Of a stretch of DNA of 64,000 bases, positions 42,460-49,541 are shown one piece after another. Position 1 is the stretch's first letter, and the number at the start of each line of letters is the position of its first letter. Origin of the DNA: Pseudarthrobacter sp. BIM B-2242 (lineage in GTDB: Bacteria; Actinomycetota; Actinomycetes; Actinomycetales; Micrococcaceae). The position numbers and the translations under genes are program-made. The notes under the pieces were generated by a model, which was not told where the DNA came from, made no database searches, and saw nothing but the letters and a program-made list of their open reading frames with translations. Location: positions 4,278,001-4,342,000 of the forward strand of contig NZ_CP061721.1 in assembly GCF_014764445.1 (NCBI RefSeq). The letters are read 5' to 3'.

Positions 42460-45150
42460 ATGTACTTGACAGGTCGGACCAGCGAGTTGGACCGGATCCG
42501 GTCAGTGATCGGAGCTTCCAAGGAGTCCGCCCTGTCGATTGTGGCTCGGCGGGGAGCGGGCAAATCAGCGCTGCTGTCCCAGATCCCGCGCCTGTCCGAC
42601 TATCGGACCGTCTTTCTGCAGGCAAACGCGGCTGAGGCCGACTGGCCATTTTCCGGTCTCACAGCGCTTCTCAACGGTATCGATGATCCCATCCTGAGCC
42701 GGTTTACAGACCAACTGTTGCGCACCTCGACGGCGGACATGAATGTTTCCACCGTTTCCACCATGCTGCTCGACGGACTCCACAAGCGCTCATCTGGACG
42801 GACCGTCATTGTGGTTGATGATGCCGACCAGCTGGATGCGAGCACTCAGGCCGTCCTCGGATTCCTCTCGCGCCGCTTGGCCGGAACGGACATTGCCCTG
42901 TTCACCAGTGTGCGAGAGCAAGGGCCGGGCAGCCCGTTCCACAGCATCCCCGCCCTGCACCTCTCGGCCCTGGACTACAAGGACACCGTCCGCATGCTTG
43001 AGTCTTTTCCGGCCAGGCAGACCGCGACAGCGGCGATCCATGCGGTAGCAGCAGCCAGCCAGGGAAACCTGGCCGCCGCCGTCGAGCTCTACACCGGCCT
43101 GCTGGAACGGCAAGCGGAGGGAACGTGGGCCTTCCCTATTCCCCTGGCCTGCAGAAGCAGTTTTGACTCCGAATATGCCACTGCAGTGGGATCGCTTGGT
43201 GCGGCAGCGCGGCAGGTACTGAACCTCCTGTCTCTCTCCCGCCGGAGCGACATCGCCACTTTGGAAAAGGTCTGTGGCGAGCTTTGGCCAGGCCTGGATG
43301 AGCTGCTGGGAAACGGCCTGGCCAGCCAGTCCGGGCCCCACGTGAGGATTCCGGACCAGCTGCTGCGGGGCTACGTTTATTCCGCTATGCCGCCCGCCGC
43401 CCGGACCGCCGGGCACCGCACACTCGCAGAAGCGGCGGGGGCCGACGACCCTTATGCCCAGCGATGGCACCAGAGCTTCAGCGCGCCGGAGCGCGAGACG
43501 CCTTTAGGACTCCTCCGGTTCGCGGTTGACCTGATCCGCACCGGCGAAGTCCCGTTTGCCTTGGAGTACATCGAGCGTGCGCTCACTGTCGGCCCCTGCG
43601 GGGCGGAGTCCGCGGTCCGGCTGGCCACTGCGGCCGAACTCCTGTTCAACAGGGGGGAATTCGTCTTCGCCAGGCGGTACCTGGAATGGGCACAACGGGT
43701 GACATGCAACCCGGCCCTGGTTCTGCGCCTGGCCGGACTCGGCTTTGAGCTCCAGTTCATGCAGGGCACCTCCGTGAGACCCAGCATGGTCCTGCGCCTG
43801 GTGAAAGAGTTCGGGCAGCATGATCCCGCGTATTCGGCCAGACTACTGGCTGTCGGTTCCCTGTATTACGCCGAGCGTTGGGAGCTGGACGATGCCCTCA
43901 CGCTGCTGCAGCACGTGCAGGAATTCCGGGACGCCGCGTCCAGCGACTGCCTTGCCATGGCAGACTGCGCCGCCCGGCTCGTTGACGCGATCCGGGGTAA
44001 ATCCGTACATCTTCCACGCACCAGGGAAGCCGCCGGCACCACGCTGGCCACCGTACTGGTGGAGGGCCGCGCTCTCACCTACGCCGAGCACCATGGCGCG
44101 GCCCATGAGGCGCACGCGATCGTGCGGAGCTCCGGTGAGGCCGTCGACCTCAATTGGCGACAAACCGCCGCGCACTTTGCCGTGGACAACGAAATCAGGG
44201 CGGGAAACGTCCGGCGGGCCATCCTGCTCATCGACCGCCTGGAGCATTCCGACCCCGAAACAAAGTACCACCGGGGGATGCGGCACATCTTCCGGGTGTG
44301 GCGCGCCCATTCACTGGGCGATGAGGCCCTTGCCCAGAGGTTTTTTGCCGAGGCCCAGCATTTCGTGAGCGAGGCCAGCCATCCTGCCGTCACGGCTCAG
44401 TTGGCCGCCTGCCAAGGGCAGTTCGCATTGATGCGCGGCGACCTGGCCGAGGCTTTCGCCCAGTTGTCACGGGCGGCCGAGATCGGCACCGTCTTCGCCA
44501 ACCCCACGCTTCTCCGCAGCGAAGCTGACCTGGTGGAGGTTCTCATCCGGCTCGGGCGGCACAGCGAAGCCATCCGGGTCTTTGGCCGGCTGGAGAGCCG
44601 TTCCATAGGGCGACGATCATCGTGGCTGATGACAGCTACGGCGCGCAGCCGCGCCATGCTGTCCGACGGGGAGGAGTCGCTGCGGCTGTTCAACGCGGCA
44701 CTGGAGAGCAGCGGCTCCCAGGAGTCGCTGCTTGAGCGCGCCAGGACCCTGCTCTGCTACGCGGAACGGCTCAGCGCCTTCGGACGGCTCGGTGAAGGCC
44801 GGGAGGGCCTGTTGCAGGCGAAGGTCCTGTTCGATGAATGCGGGGCTGATGCCTGGACACAGCGCGTCGATTCCCTCCTTCTCGACGAACGGATCAGGCC
44901 TGCCGGTGTGCCTGCGAATCCGGCCATGCTGATGCTCACCGACCACGAACGCTCTCTTGCCCAGATGGTTGCCCGTGGCATGCGAAACAAGGAAATTGCG
45001 GGCACTCTCTTCGTCTCCGTCCGGACTGTGGAAGTTCGCCTCACCAGCATCTACCGCAAGCTCGGCGTGGAGTCCCGCGCACAACTGTCCGCCTTGGCAT
45101 CCGGGAAGATGGCCGCCACCCGGGAACCGTACGTCCTGCCTCTTCTGTGA
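42460..45150 (+). CDS. large LuxR-family ATPase regulator (LAL type)
   Basis: An 896-residue signal-transduction ATPase. The N-terminal AAA/NTPase domain has Walker A RGAGKSALL (Lys35) and Walker B TVIVVDDADQLD (about 116-125). The middle (about 370-800) is an all-helical TPR-like region. The C terminus (about 835-885) is a LuxR HTH: LTDHERSLAQMVARGMRNKEI followed by SVRTVEVRLTSIYRKLGVESR. LAL/MalT-type regulators activate adjacent biosynthetic or uptake genes on ligand binding. It is followed 122 bases later by the DegT-like and NeuD-like genes on the same strand, which are its probable targets. Confidence 0.88.
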   Translation: MYLTGRTSELDRIRSVIGASKESALSIVARRGAGKSALLSQIPRLSDYRTVFLQANAAEADWPFSGLTALLNGIDDPILSRFTDQLLRTSTADMNVSTVSTMLLDGLHKRSSGRTVIVVDDADQLDASTQAVLGFLSRRLAGTDIALFTSVREQGPGSPFHSIPALHLSALDYKDTVRMLESFPARQTATAAIHAVAAASQGNLAAAVELYTGLLERQAEGTWAFPIPLACRSSFDSEYATAVGSLGAAARQVLNLLSLSRRSDIATLEKVCGELWPGLDELLGNGLASQSGPHVRIPDQLLRGYVYSAMPPAARTAGHRTLAEAAGADDPYAQRWHQSFSAPERETPLGLLRFAVDLIRTGEVPFALEYIERALTVGPCGAESAVRLATAAELLFNRGEFVFARRYLEWAQRVTCNPALVLRLAGLGFELQFMQGTSVRPSMVLRLVKEFGQHDPAYSARLLAVGSLYYAERWELDDALTLLQHVQEFRDAASSDCLAMADCAARLVDAIRGKSVHLPRTREAAGTTLATVLVEGRALTYAEHHGAAHEAHAIVRSSGEAVDLNWRQTAAHFAVDNEIRAGNVRRAILLIDRLEHSDPETKYHRGMRHIFRVWRAHSLGDEALAQRFFAEAQHFVSEASHPAVTAQLAACQGQFALMRGDLAEAFAQLSRAAEIGTVFANPTLLRSEADLVEVLIRLGRHSEAIRVFGRLESRSIGRRSSWLMTATARSRAMLSDGEESLRLFNAALESSGSQESLLERARTLLCYAERLSAFGRLGEGREGLLQAKVLFDECGADAWTQRVDSLLLDERIRPAGVPANPAMLMLTDHERSLAQMVARGMRNKEIAGTLFVSVRTVEVRLTSIYRKLGVESRAQLSALASGKMAATREPYVLPLL

Positions 45151-45272
45151 CCGCCAACGAAACTCCCACCATTTTTCCATCCACTCAGCCCAGGACTTTC
45201 CCGTAAGAAGGGCCAATTGAGGACCACCTTTTCAGCACACGAGATGACCGCGACCAAGAAAGTTGGTGCCCC

Positions 45273-46439
45273 ATGACGGCGGAGATCGTCCTTGCCCGGA
45301 TCAGCCTCGTGAAGCCGTGGTTCGGGGATGAGGAAGCCACGGCCCTGGCCGAAGTGGTTGCCTCCGGCCACGTAGGGAAGGGGCCCAAGGTCAAGGAGTT
45401 CGAGGCCGGTTTCAGTGCCGCGCAGGACTTGCGCTATGCCATTGCAACATCCAGTTGCACGGCTGCGCTTCACCTTGCGCTCGTGGCTGCGGGCATAGGT
45501 CCGGGTGACGACGTGGTGGTTCCGTCGCTGTCCTTCATAGCCACCGCCAACGCAGTAACCTACGTAGGCGCGCGGCCGGTGTTCTGCGACGTCGATCCGG
45601 CCACGGGTAACGTCACGGCCGAGACCATTCATGCGGCGCTCACACTGGATACCCGTGCCGTCCTTGTTGTTGACCAGTGCGGCGTGCCGGTGGACCTTGA
45701 TCCCATCCGGGAACTCTGTGACCGCCACGAGATCACCGTGATCGAGGATGCCGCGGCCGCTGTTGGTTCCCTTTACAAGGGCCGGCCTGTCGGCAGCGGC
45801 GCGGACCTGACCGTCTGGTCTTTCCACTCCAACAACGTCATCACCACAGGTGAGGGGGGCATGCTCACCACACACCGGGCGGATTGGGCGGCGCGGGCCC
45901 GTATGCTCCGGGAGCATTCCAAAGGCCCCACCCCGACCGACGGGCACGAGTCGGTCAAGCCCCGCCCGGATGTCTATCTGGAGATCGGATTCAACTATCT
46001 GATGACGGACCTGCAGGCCGCGGTGGGGGTCGTACAGCTGCGCCGGCTTGCGCAGGTGGTGTCCCGGCGACGCGAGATCGCCGCGATGTATGCTGCCGGA
46101 CTGACCGGACTGAAGGGCCTGCGCCTGGTGGCAGACCCGCCCTACGGCACCACCAACTTCCAGTCCTTCTGGGTTGAGGTCCTGCCCGGTTTCGCCACCA
46201 GCCGCGAAGGGCTGCTCTCCCGTCTTTCCGACGCCGGCATCTCGGCCACCCGTGGCATCATGGCGGCCCACCGGCAACCGGCTTACCGTTGGCGTGACAC
46301 CGGCGGCGCGCGGCTGCAGCACACAGAACGGCTGACTGACAGCACAGTCATCCTTCCGATGTTTCACGAGCTGGATACGGTCAGCATCAAGCGCATTATC
46401 AACACTATCCAGACCGCCGGCGACTGGAGTGGCAGGTGA
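45273..46439 (+). CDS. DegT/DnrJ/EryC1/StrS-fold protein lacking the PLP lysine
   Basis: A 388-residue protein with clear fold-type I sugar aminotransferase sequence: GKGPKVKEFEAGFSAA, PSLSFIATANAV and EDAAAAVGSLYKGRPVG. The motif that normally reads SFHxxKxITTGEGG reads SFHSNNVITTGEGG, so the Schiff-base lysine is Asn188 (codon AAC at 45834-45836). The residue stacking on PLP in EDAAxA is Ala rather than His or Gln. It may be a dehydratase-like or non-catalytic member, or carry a sequencing error. It overlaps the NeuD-like gene by four bases. A nucleotide-sugar substrate is likely from the family and partner. Confidence 0.85.
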   Translation: MTAEIVLARISLVKPWFGDEEATALAEVVASGHVGKGPKVKEFEAGFSAAQDLRYAIATSSCTAALHLALVAAGIGPGDDVVVPSLSFIATANAVTYVGARPVFCDVDPATGNVTAETIHAALTLDTRAVLVVDQCGVPVDLDPIRELCDRHEITVIEDAAAAVGSLYKGRPVGSGADLTVWSFHSNNVITTGEGGMLTTHRADWAARARMLREHSKGPTPTDGHESVKPRPDVYLEIGFNYLMTDLQAAVGVVQLRRLAQVVSRRREIAAMYAAGLTGLKGLRLVADPPYGTTNFQSFWVEVLPGFATSREGLLSRLSDAGISATRGIMAAHRQPAYRWRDTGGARLQHTERLTDSTVILPMFHELDTVSIKRIINTIQTAGDWSGR

Positions 46440-47095
46440 GTGAACTTATCCTGATTGCCGCCAGCGGGCTGGCCCGGGAAGTCTTGGCGATGGTGCGGAG
46501 CAGCGGTCAATACGACGTCGTAGGGCTGCTTGATGATGACAAGGAAATGGCAGGACTAACCGTGGACGGTGCGCCGGTCCTCGGAACCATCGACGACGCC
46601 CCCGCCTACTTGCACGCCTTCGTCCTGGTCTGTCTCAACTCCGGCAAATCACGTGAAAAAGTGGTGGAGCGGCTCACGGCCCTGGGACTCCACGAGGCGC
46701 GGTACGCGACTGCGATAGATCCGTCTGTGGAGTGCCCGGAGGGGTGCCGGATTGGCCGGGGCAGCATCCTCATGCGCAATGTGACGCTGACAGCCTCCGT
46801 CACGCTCGGCTCACATGTGGTGGCGATGCCGTCCGTAACGTTCACGCACGACGACGACGTGGCGGACTTCGCGACGTTCGACGCCGGGGTATCGCTGGGC
46901 GGCGGAGTCCGGATTGGCCGGTCAGCCTACCTGGGGATGAATTCCAGTGTCCGCGAAGGGACATCGGTGGGAGCCTACGCGACCGTGGGCATGGGTGCTG
47001 CGGTCCTCAGCAACGTGCCTGACGGCGAAACCTGGGTCGGCGTCCCGGCCCGCGGAATTGACCACGAACCCTCCCGTTACGGGCAGGGTCGCTGA
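46436..47095 (+). CDS. NeuD/PglD-family sugar O/N-acyltransferase
   Basis: A 219-residue protein with an N-terminal Rossmann-like sugar-binding half (LILIAASGLAREVLAMVRSSGQYDVVGLLDDD) and a C-terminal left-handed beta-helix of hexapeptide repeats. The catalytic histidine of PglD-type enzymes is probably the one in TFTHDDDVADF. The end VPDGETWVGVPARG is typical. GTG 46436 overlaps the DegT-like stop as GTGA. The pair resembles PglE-PglD or sialic/legionaminic-type amino-sugar modules, but the aminotransferase half is altered. Confidence 0.87.
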   Translation: MSELILIAASGLAREVLAMVRSSGQYDVVGLLDDDKEMAGLTVDGAPVLGTIDDAPAYLHAFVLVCLNSGKSREKVVERLTALGLHEARYATAIDPSVECPEGCRIGRGSILMRNVTLTASVTLGSHVVAMPSVTFTHDDDVADFATFDAGVSLGGGVRIGRSAYLGMNSSVREGTSVGAYATVGMGAAVLSNVPDGETWVGVPARGIDHEPSRYGQGR

Positions 47096-48541: not shown

Positions 48542-49447
48542 CTACAGCGTGACGTTCAGTCCAGCCGTGTAGCCCGTGGTGGCGGAGCCAGTCATCGTGG
48601 CGAGCTGGTAGATCCCGCCGTCGTCCCGGAAGACGTTGTCATTCTGCAGCGTGGTCCGCTTCATGTTGGCGACGCTGTCCTCGTATCCCGGCGTGGCGTA
48701 GACGTCGTCGCAGGCGGCCTTGGTCAGTGCGATCTGTGACACCGCGAGCACCTGTCCGGCCGCGGTGGCGTTGCTCATGGACTCGAACACTTCGAAGTGG
48801 ATGTGCGGCCAGCGTCCGGAATAGGCGCCCGGGAAGATGGAGATGAAAGTGACCTGGCCGTTGGCGTCGGCTTCCTGCACTCCGCGGAGGTAGTTTTCGT
48901 TGGACAGTCCTGAATCGTAGAGCGAATACCGTCCCTCGCGGTCACAATGCCAGGCGTAGACGGCGGCCCCGGCCAGCGGAACACAGCCGTTGGCGTTGTC
49001 CAGCAGGGTCAGGGTGAAGGTCAGCGGCACGCCCCCGGCTTTGGCGCTGCCGGTGCCGAAACTTGCGGTGATGTCCTGCCGCACCACCCCGGAGGCGGCC
49101 AGGACGTTGGGCCCGTTCGATCCGTCGCCAGGGAACGGACCCGCCGTCTCCTCCGGAATCTCCACGCCGCACTCGGCGATCGCGCGGGTGAGCGTCGGGG
49201 ACGCGGTGGGCGACGCCGTCGTGCTGGCTGCGGCGGATGCGGTAGCACTTCCGGTGACGGTCGACGTCGGTGTGCCGGCTGTGGTGCCCGACCCGCCGCT
49301 TCCCGACCCTCCTGGCGTGCACGCGGCCAGCGCCGCTGCCGCGCCGCCGGCGCCGAAAAACATTCCGAGCGACCGCCGGCTCATGAGGGTGGAGAGGTCA
49401 AACTCGAGGCCGCGGTCATGGTTGGGGTGGGGAACGTGGTTGCTCAT
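48542..49447 (-). CDS. exported intradiol ring-cleavage dioxygenase-like lipoprotein
   Basis: A 301-residue protein with a twin-arginine signal (MSRRSLGMFFGAGGAAAALAAC) that also contains a lipobox-like LAAC, then a Ser/Thr/Ala linker and an intradiol dioxygenase domain. Candidate Fe(III) ligands are Tyr residues in AVYAWHCDREGRYSLY and GAYSGRW and the His pair WPHIHFEVF. Tat export fits folding with iron in the cytoplasm. Substrate unknown; extracellular members act on catechols or plant phenolics. ATG 49447 lies inside a short extension. It is not in the pca cluster. Confidence 0.85.
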   Translation of the reverse strand: MSNHVPHPNHDRGLEFDLSTLMSRRSLGMFFGAGGAAAALAACTPGGSGSGGSGTTAGTPTSTVTGSATASAAASTTASPTASPTLTRAIAECGVEIPEETAGPFPGDGSNGPNVLAASGVVRQDITASFGTGSAKAGGVPLTFTLTLLDNANGCVPLAGAAVYAWHCDREGRYSLYDSGLSNENYLRGVQEADANGQVTFISIFPGAYSGRWPHIHFEVFESMSNATAAGQVLAVSQIALTKAACDDVYATPGYEDSVANMKRTTLQNDNVFRDDGGIYQLATMTGSATTGYTAGLNVTL

Positions 49448-49541
49448 GGTTCTATCCAACCTGCCGCCCCTGTCGATTGCATAGGGCGGGGCTGTGCGGA
49501 CGCTGTGCCTCGGCCGGCCGCGCGCGAGTTAAACAGCCGAG

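Follow-up and report, generated by a model that had tools for sequence, protein, structure and literature searches.

The locus described here raises the question of what a protein with the fold of a DegT sugar aminotransferase does in a soil bacterium when asparagine occupies the position of the lysine that should hold its PLP cofactor. The gene lies in a window of 64,000 nucleotides (the whole stretch of DNA that was analysed), where it forms a single, uninterrupted reading frame with the following features.

45273..46439, + strand: DegT/DnrJ/EryC1/StrS-family protein without the lysine, 388 amino acids (PF01041)
45834..45836, + strand: codon 188, AAC, giving Asn at the position of the PLP Schiff-base lysine (sequence and alignment)
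45747..45749, + strand: codon 159, the retained pyridine-N aspartate Asp159 (position map; role assigned by homology from an excerpt of PMC5936713)
45369..45371, + strand: codon 33, His, where 84 of 85 lysine-bearing copies have Trp and one has a gap (comparison of copies)

Membership in the DegT/DnrJ/EryC1/StrS family is evident from a PF01041 profile score of about 336 bits against a cut-off of 19.8, and an AlphaFold2 model with a mean pLDDT of 89.4 predicts the intact DegT fold that had been presumed from the sequence alone. The scores fall below the cut-offs of the NCBIfam equivalogs for both ArnB (271.7 versus 631 bits) and PseC (287.3 versus 423.5 bits). Within the motif SFHSNN(188)VITTGEGG, the Asn encoded by codon 188 aligns to the PLP lysine of the ArnB chain, which the PDB title 'ArnB K188A' gives as K188. 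Thus, the Schiff-base lysine that characterizes PLP-dependent sugar aminotransferases is replaced by Asn188 in the window protein, as first claimed in the sequence-only reading.

Other changes accompany this substitution. The window protein differs at 28 of the 194 positions that are conserved in lysine-bearing copies, whereas the lysine-bearing relative L058 of Arthrobacter sp. B6 differs at one. Among others, the changes affect Trp33, Ala35, Arg187, Lys188 and Arg243, as well as some of the 214-235 loop. Statements on pocket residues of the window protein are made by homology from the literature, and on this basis residue 33 probably lies in the nucleotide-side pocket (PMC5936713, excerpt). 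An Ala in the EDAAxA motif had also been flagged as an active-site departure. The departure at Ala162 is real, although the residue typical of this subfamily is Cys (64 of 64 lysine-bearing copies, 29 + 35), and therefore the change is from Cys to Ala. Given that T63, S183 and D159, which contact the PLP phosphate and pyridine ring, are all three present, and that the PLP-site residues F88 and E194 and, on the donor side, H185 and N241 are also retained, the window protein could still bind the cofactor.

Because a single base separates AAC from AAG or AAA, an error at base 45836 would be sufficient to create the anomaly. We assign this explanation a negligible probability, since non-Lys codons recur in separately sequenced Arthrobacter and Pseudarthrobacter genomes. 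In the genus, at least 36 genomes besides this one carry such a codon (22 by pattern, 14 from loci read), and the window protein departs elsewhere as well, at R187, W33 and other conserved positions. The codon specifies Asn, His or Glu in Arthrobacter sp. S39, Soil762, AQ5-06 and AFG7.2, and in Pseudarthrobacter polychromogenes, oxydans and sp. AL07.

A search for homologues with Asn at this column, as the sequence-only reading had proposed, reveals that the substitution is one of several. Among 121 distinct copies read nearly full length, with identical proteins counted once, 36 have no Lys at the column (Asn 14, Glu 12, His 8, Gln 1, Gly 1) and 85 have Lys. This set was assembled after setting aside tblastn pieces below 45% identity or spanning fewer than about 300 residues, and with them the split copies L178, L179 and L180; some matches from the genus at 60-64% identity lie outside the set read one by one. 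The interpretation had been staked on close homologues not all carrying Lys, and many close ones do lack it, with lysine-bearing orthologs also present at 74-80% identity.

A motif search allowing Asn or His at the codon found matches in 23 of the 206 genus genomes. Of 295 genomes drawn from the family, three matched, all belonging to the genus (24 genomes of the draw), and none of the 271 family genomes from other genera did. DegT proteins without the lysine occur in at least 37 of the 206 genus genomes (23 with the Asn/His pattern, two with Glu, one with Gln, one with Gly and 10 with a Glu paralogue described below), and the label 'DegT aminotransferase' is unsafe there.

The lysine was lost about six separate times in this one genus. 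On a tree of 72 rows from which the motif columns were dropped, the presence or absence of Lys requires six changes (five to seven over bootstrap replicates), of which at least four are forced on well supported branches. The number of lysine-less copies and their clustering on the tree go beyond chance. None of 200 bootstrap replicates gave a single origin. The 49 rows outside the tree are mostly distant lysine-bearing rows and near-copies, including L057 (His). An earlier quick tree of 105 rows, with the motif included and fewer lysine-less loci, required only three changes. A single inherited loss uniting the 25 ingroup lysine-less rows as one clade was rejected by an AU test (p 0.004). The lysine-less copies comprise an N clade (10 copies), an H/Q clade (nine copies, eight of them with His), the single lines L139, L037 and L182, all with Asn, and a group in which the window copy is joined by L184 (Glu), L032 (Glu) and L197 (Gly; on a long branch, so that its placement is unsure).

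These losses can be compared with the fate of the surrounding genes. The window retains the following neighbours.

42460..45150, + strand: LAL-type LuxR regulator (AAA_16 and GerE), 896 amino acids, the first gene of the ancestral cluster (Pfam and synteny)
45151..45272, + strand: gap between LuxR and DegT, without the element GCAGGTACCCGCAGTWTCCRCA (pattern scan)
46436..47095, + strand: NeuD/PglD/VioB-type sugar acyltransferase (TIGR03570, 174 bits against a cut-off of 160.8; VioB alignment)

The start of the NeuD-type gene overlaps the DegT stop, which bears out the acyltransferase coupling noticed earlier, and its active-site His is present in a THDDD motif that aligns to the VioB His. Lysine-bearing loci of the ingroup typically run from LuxR through a polyprenyl sugar transferase (TIGR03025, over cut-off), Gfo/Idh (PF01408), SDR (PF01370, epimerase/dehydratase family) and DegT to NeuD, followed by a second, lysine-bearing DegT and then further genes. 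The latter, which were named by reading their sequences, are presumably a flippase-like protein and glycosyltransferases. In the lineage of the window, the sugar transferase, Gfo/Idh and SDR are gone, as are the genes that follow NeuD, leaving LuxR-DegT-NeuD. This LuxR-DegT arrangement, with or without NeuD, is also what L139, L182 and the N clade retain. In the H/Q clade and in L037, the transferase and Gfo/Idh are still present between LuxR and DegT-NeuD.

In the ingroup, lysine loss goes with SDR loss. Among loci within L031-L150 that have more than 6 kb upstream, an SDR gene lies beside DegT in 69 of 75 lysine-bearing loci versus 0 of 20 lysine-less loci, and the six lysine-bearing exceptions are L112 and L113 of the ingroup and four distant loci. 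At the whole-genome level, a close SDR (E up to 1e-50) is absent from 25 lysine-less genomes and from two of two lysine-bearing genomes with reduced clusters, and was found in two of two with full clusters. An independent-pairs sign test of the link has only three supported pairs, which are too few to reach significance.

The separate DegT paralogue with Glu188 (10 copies in 10 genomes, L198-L206 and L183) breaks this link, given that an SDR lies beside a lysine-bearing copy in 6 of its 10 loci. A lysine-bearing copy is nearby in these six loci and not in the other four. In this paralogue, Asp replaces His185, Phe88 is replaced by Ser, Pro or Ala, and a deletion removes the greater part of the 214-235 loop. 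In L199 and L202, which were read gene by gene, it is located away from sugar genes, between what we take to be ACT-domain-like and mscL-like genes.

Some lysine-bearing loci are already reduced or changed. L112 and L113 have lost the transferase, Gfo/Idh and SDR, L112 and L114 carry Asp at position 241, and L114, despite having its SDR, has a Gfo/Idh motif that reads EQP. Therefore, the pathway can begin to decay while the lysine is still present. In relatives, residue 241 contacts the carboxylate of the amino donor (PMC5936713, excerpt). Asn241 is replaced by Asp in 19 of 19 copies of the N and H/Q clades, and remains Asn in the window.

The neighbouring enzymes have been altered as well. 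Members of the Gfo/Idh family use a K-D-H triad whose lysine lies within an EKP motif (PMC5969746, excerpt). The EKP lysine is present in 84 of 85 lysine-bearing loci and is lost in all nine lysine-less loci that retain the gene (Gln in six, Glu in three), and the active-site His is lost in eight of these nine. The DE motif of the sugar transferase is present in nine of nine lysine-less loci. For NeuD, 23 lysine-less loci have the active-site position aligned, and in 5 of them, each belonging to the H/Q clade, the His has become Tyr. The same change occurs in 5 of the 10 loci with NeuD and no DegT, compared with His in all 83 loci that have both a lysine-bearing DegT and NeuD (a few of which represent one genome twice). 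L192-L196 are LuxR-NeuD pairs of this kind, with Tyr for the active-site His and a dN/dS of about 0.10. The sequence-only reading did not foresee that the lysine was lost recurrently (to Asn, His, Gln, Glu or Gly), that the upstream pathway disappeared along with it or that an enzyme encoded nearby lost catalytic residues.

That reading had named ColD as a known lysine-less relative, and one may ask whether the window DegT is a lysine-free PMP/PLP catalyst acting on a new substrate, with Asn, His, Gln or Glu as the replacement base. The 3-dehydratases ColD, E1 and SpnQ are, like the window protein, DegT-fold proteins that naturally lack the lysine, and the phosphate and pyridine contacts are present in most lysine-less copies. 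However, these dehydratases have a conserved catalytic His and a keto-sugar substrate, and their PMP chemistry needs both a base at the lysine site and a supply of substrate (PMC8987622, excerpt). A His is found here only in eight of nine H/Q-clade copies, the window has Asn, whose side chain is not basic, and the residue otherwise varies. The donor-carboxylate Asn241 is changed throughout the N and H/Q clades, though kept in the window, the surviving Gfo/Idh partner has no EKP lysine and a close ortholog of the cluster SDR is absent. Given that loss of the lysine is recurrent, that the upstream pathway is gone and that the neighbouring enzyme has lost catalytic residues, we judge new chemistry of the ColD kind to be improbable.

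Regardless of their chemistry, the lysine-less proteins of the N and H/Q clades are under purifying selection. Median DegT dN/dS (Nei-Gojobori) is 0.158-0.159 in the N clade and 0.069 in the H/Q clade, compared with 0.085 in lysine-bearing rows; the window group gives 0.162 (four pairs), a value that spans the time before and after lysine loss together. The corresponding values are 0.078 (range 0.054-0.324) for Gfo/Idh of the H/Q clade and 0.101 for NeuD proteins that have Tyr and no DegT. The share of differences that falls on third codon positions is 0.65-0.73 for the N, H/Q and Glu groups (constraint on the Glu paralogue was judged from these codon-position shares) and 0.75 for lysine-bearing rows, versus 0.33 in a neutral simulation. 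In 300 neutral runs, DegT sequences acquired a mean of 5.4 in-frame stops at N-clade divergence and 9.9 at H/Q-clade divergence, with stops in nearly every run, whereas none are present in the N and H/Q clade copies compared, and no internal stop occurs in any tabulated DegT match.

With these results in mind, we consider it probable, though by no means assured, that the window DegT is a recurrently evolved pseudoenzyme that is maintained by selection for a non-transaminating, perhaps regulator-linked role. The ancestor would have been a nucleotide-sugar aminotransferase that depended on PLP and belonged to an exopolysaccharide cluster. Loss of the three enzyme genes upstream of DegT and of those beyond NeuD would have left the LuxR-DegT-NeuD remnant, and without an SDR there would be no dedicated keto-sugar, such that selection for the aminotransferase reaction would end. 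Replacement of the PLP lysine by Asn188 and changes in some of the substrate pocket could then follow, while the folded protein stayed under purifying selection. Without the lysine, no internal aldimine and hence no normal transamination would be expected, and from its sequence we infer that the window protein does not transaminate. The remaining role would be in binding, as a scaffold or in regulation, perhaps together with NeuD, with the neighbouring LuxR or with both.

A broader proposal concerns the whole gene set. In several Arthrobacter lineages, a former sugar-nucleotide operon behind a LAL-type LuxR gene could be called a dead-enzyme operon: its DegT has no PLP lysine, its Gfo/Idh has no EKP lysine and in most cases no His either, and its NeuD sometimes has Tyr in place of His. 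It is conceivable, and in our estimate rather doubtful, that purifying selection maintains this set because the proteins, together with LuxR, now form a complex that binds a ligand or regulates, in which case the window would represent the minimal LuxR-dead DegT-NeuD form.

The original suggestion that the gene does not look like a decaying pseudogene holds for its relatives, which are unlike neutral pseudogenes, and less securely for the window genome, where slow decay is possible. By this account, the window DegT is a relict being lost after the cluster was lost, and has yet to acquire a stop. DegT is dispensable, as indicated by 12 genomes in which the LuxR ortholog has no DegT in the stretch read (10 with LuxR directly followed by NeuD, two with LuxR alone), by the large internal deletion of L179 and by the split Asn copy L178. 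The NeuD gene is also missing, short or partial in several lysine-less loci. L179 (G142) is a lysine-bearing DegT, flanked by undamaged genes for LuxR and NeuD. In L178 a frameshift breaks the gene, and LuxR is likewise split in that assembly. As a matter of judgement, neither the frameshifts of L178 (Asn) and L180 (Lys), whose pieces were read separately, nor the lysine-bearing copy of L183 was taken as a sign of decay, because other genes are broken beside the first two, as in poor assemblies.

Rates of change on single branches also favour decay in most lysine-less lines outside the H/Q clade. For the window group, L139, L037 and L182, terminal-branch DegT pN/pS lies at 0.13-0.20, and L116 of the N clade reaches 0.269 (on 13 changes), compared with 0.006-0.108 in five lysine-bearing rows with full clusters. 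The window branch itself is at 0.132, against 0.091 for the lysine-bearing L058. Reduced lysine-bearing loci give 0.04 (L113), 0.074 (L112) and 0.154 (L114), and H/Q-clade rows give 0.037 (L079) and 0.082 (L131). For LuxR, the branch pN/pS of the window copy is 0.256, above that of all other rows among the 17 compared. Furthermore, the element GCAGGTACCCGCAGTWTCCRCA is located just after LuxR in most relatives viewed (by eye, most of 21 gaps), and a shorter form was found there in 10 of 12 genomes scanned, the exceptions being the window genome (G000) and G017. The window gap has no match to the element at up to three mismatches. Since this element is missing and LuxR evolves faster, slow decay is a serious rival in the window, where the unit may be drifting towards loss. 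Nevertheless, dN/dS is far below 1 in clades that are entirely lysine-less, the H/Q clade is constrained like lysine-bearing copies, and the neutral simulations would predict stops nearly always. We therefore hold decay to be an unlikely explanation that still deserves real weight.

The presence of LuxR upstream in every ingroup lysine-less locus long enough to show it invites the conjecture that the pocket acts as a ligand trap or sensor, holding a PLP-amino-sugar adduct or a nucleotide sugar and signalling to LuxR. Such a role is imaginable because engineered lysine-less mutants have crystallised with cofactor or sugar ligands, as indicated by PDB titles for GDP-perosamine synthase K186A, ArnB K188A with PLP and UDP-Ara4N, PglE K184A, and ColD H188N with GDP-perosamine. 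However, the window protein departs from its relatives at the pocket residues W33 and A35 and within the 214-235 loop, and LuxR persists also where DegT is gone. We regard this conjecture as a long shot.

The window DegT can be placed among known systems as follows. Functional DegT aminotransferases such as ArnB, PseC, GDP-perosamine synthase and TlmJ have the Schiff-base lysine, whereas the window protein has Asn and its partner SDR is gone. The locus shares with NeuD/PglD/VioB-DegT pairs the pairing itself, the overlapping frames and the NeuD His, but intact upstream sugar-nucleotide steps are not found alongside. The LCB1/SPTLC1 subunit of serine palmitoyltransferase is, like the window DegT, a PLP homologue that is retained without the lysine, and it pairs as a heterodimer with a lysine-bearing paralogue (PMC3794620, excerpt). 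A heterodimer of this type is ruled out for the window genome, which has one true DegT gene, scoring 335.9 bits, and no second one (the other 11 matches score at most 35.2 bits).

Lysine-less PLP homologues are therefore already known. This case is unusual in how often the lysine was lost independently within a single genus, in that the sequence of events can be followed, and in that an adjacent enzyme was inactivated in parallel while constraint continued. A PLP-family member that lacks the lysine is, as far as is known, usually an isolated case. We found no paper on lysine-less DegT pseudoenzymes in listings of the open-access literature, a scope that leaves out most subscription journals. 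Given that losses at several stages exist beside lysine-bearing orthologs, the retention of dead enzymes for a structural or regulatory job becomes testable, as does the order in which catalytic residues disappear.

Several minor observations concern the sequences around the genes. A conserved tandem YCCRCA-type element is present in the post-LuxR gaps of L058, L112, L116, L122, L136, L137, L139, L182, L184, L185 and L192. It persists through different deletions and is absent from the window. The possibility that the conserved element GCAGGTACCCGCAGTWTCCRCA defines a LuxR regulon was dropped, because whole-genome matches at up to two mismatches in 12 genomes (79) were about equal in number to those of a reversed control (72). 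Three near-matches to the element cluster at positions 1118975-1119833 of contig C2 in genome G089, which could be a second LuxR target. Finally, positions 48542-49459 (- strand) of the window encode what we take, from the sequence, to be a secreted intradiol-dioxygenase-like protein, beside a putative aminopeptidase-like gene.
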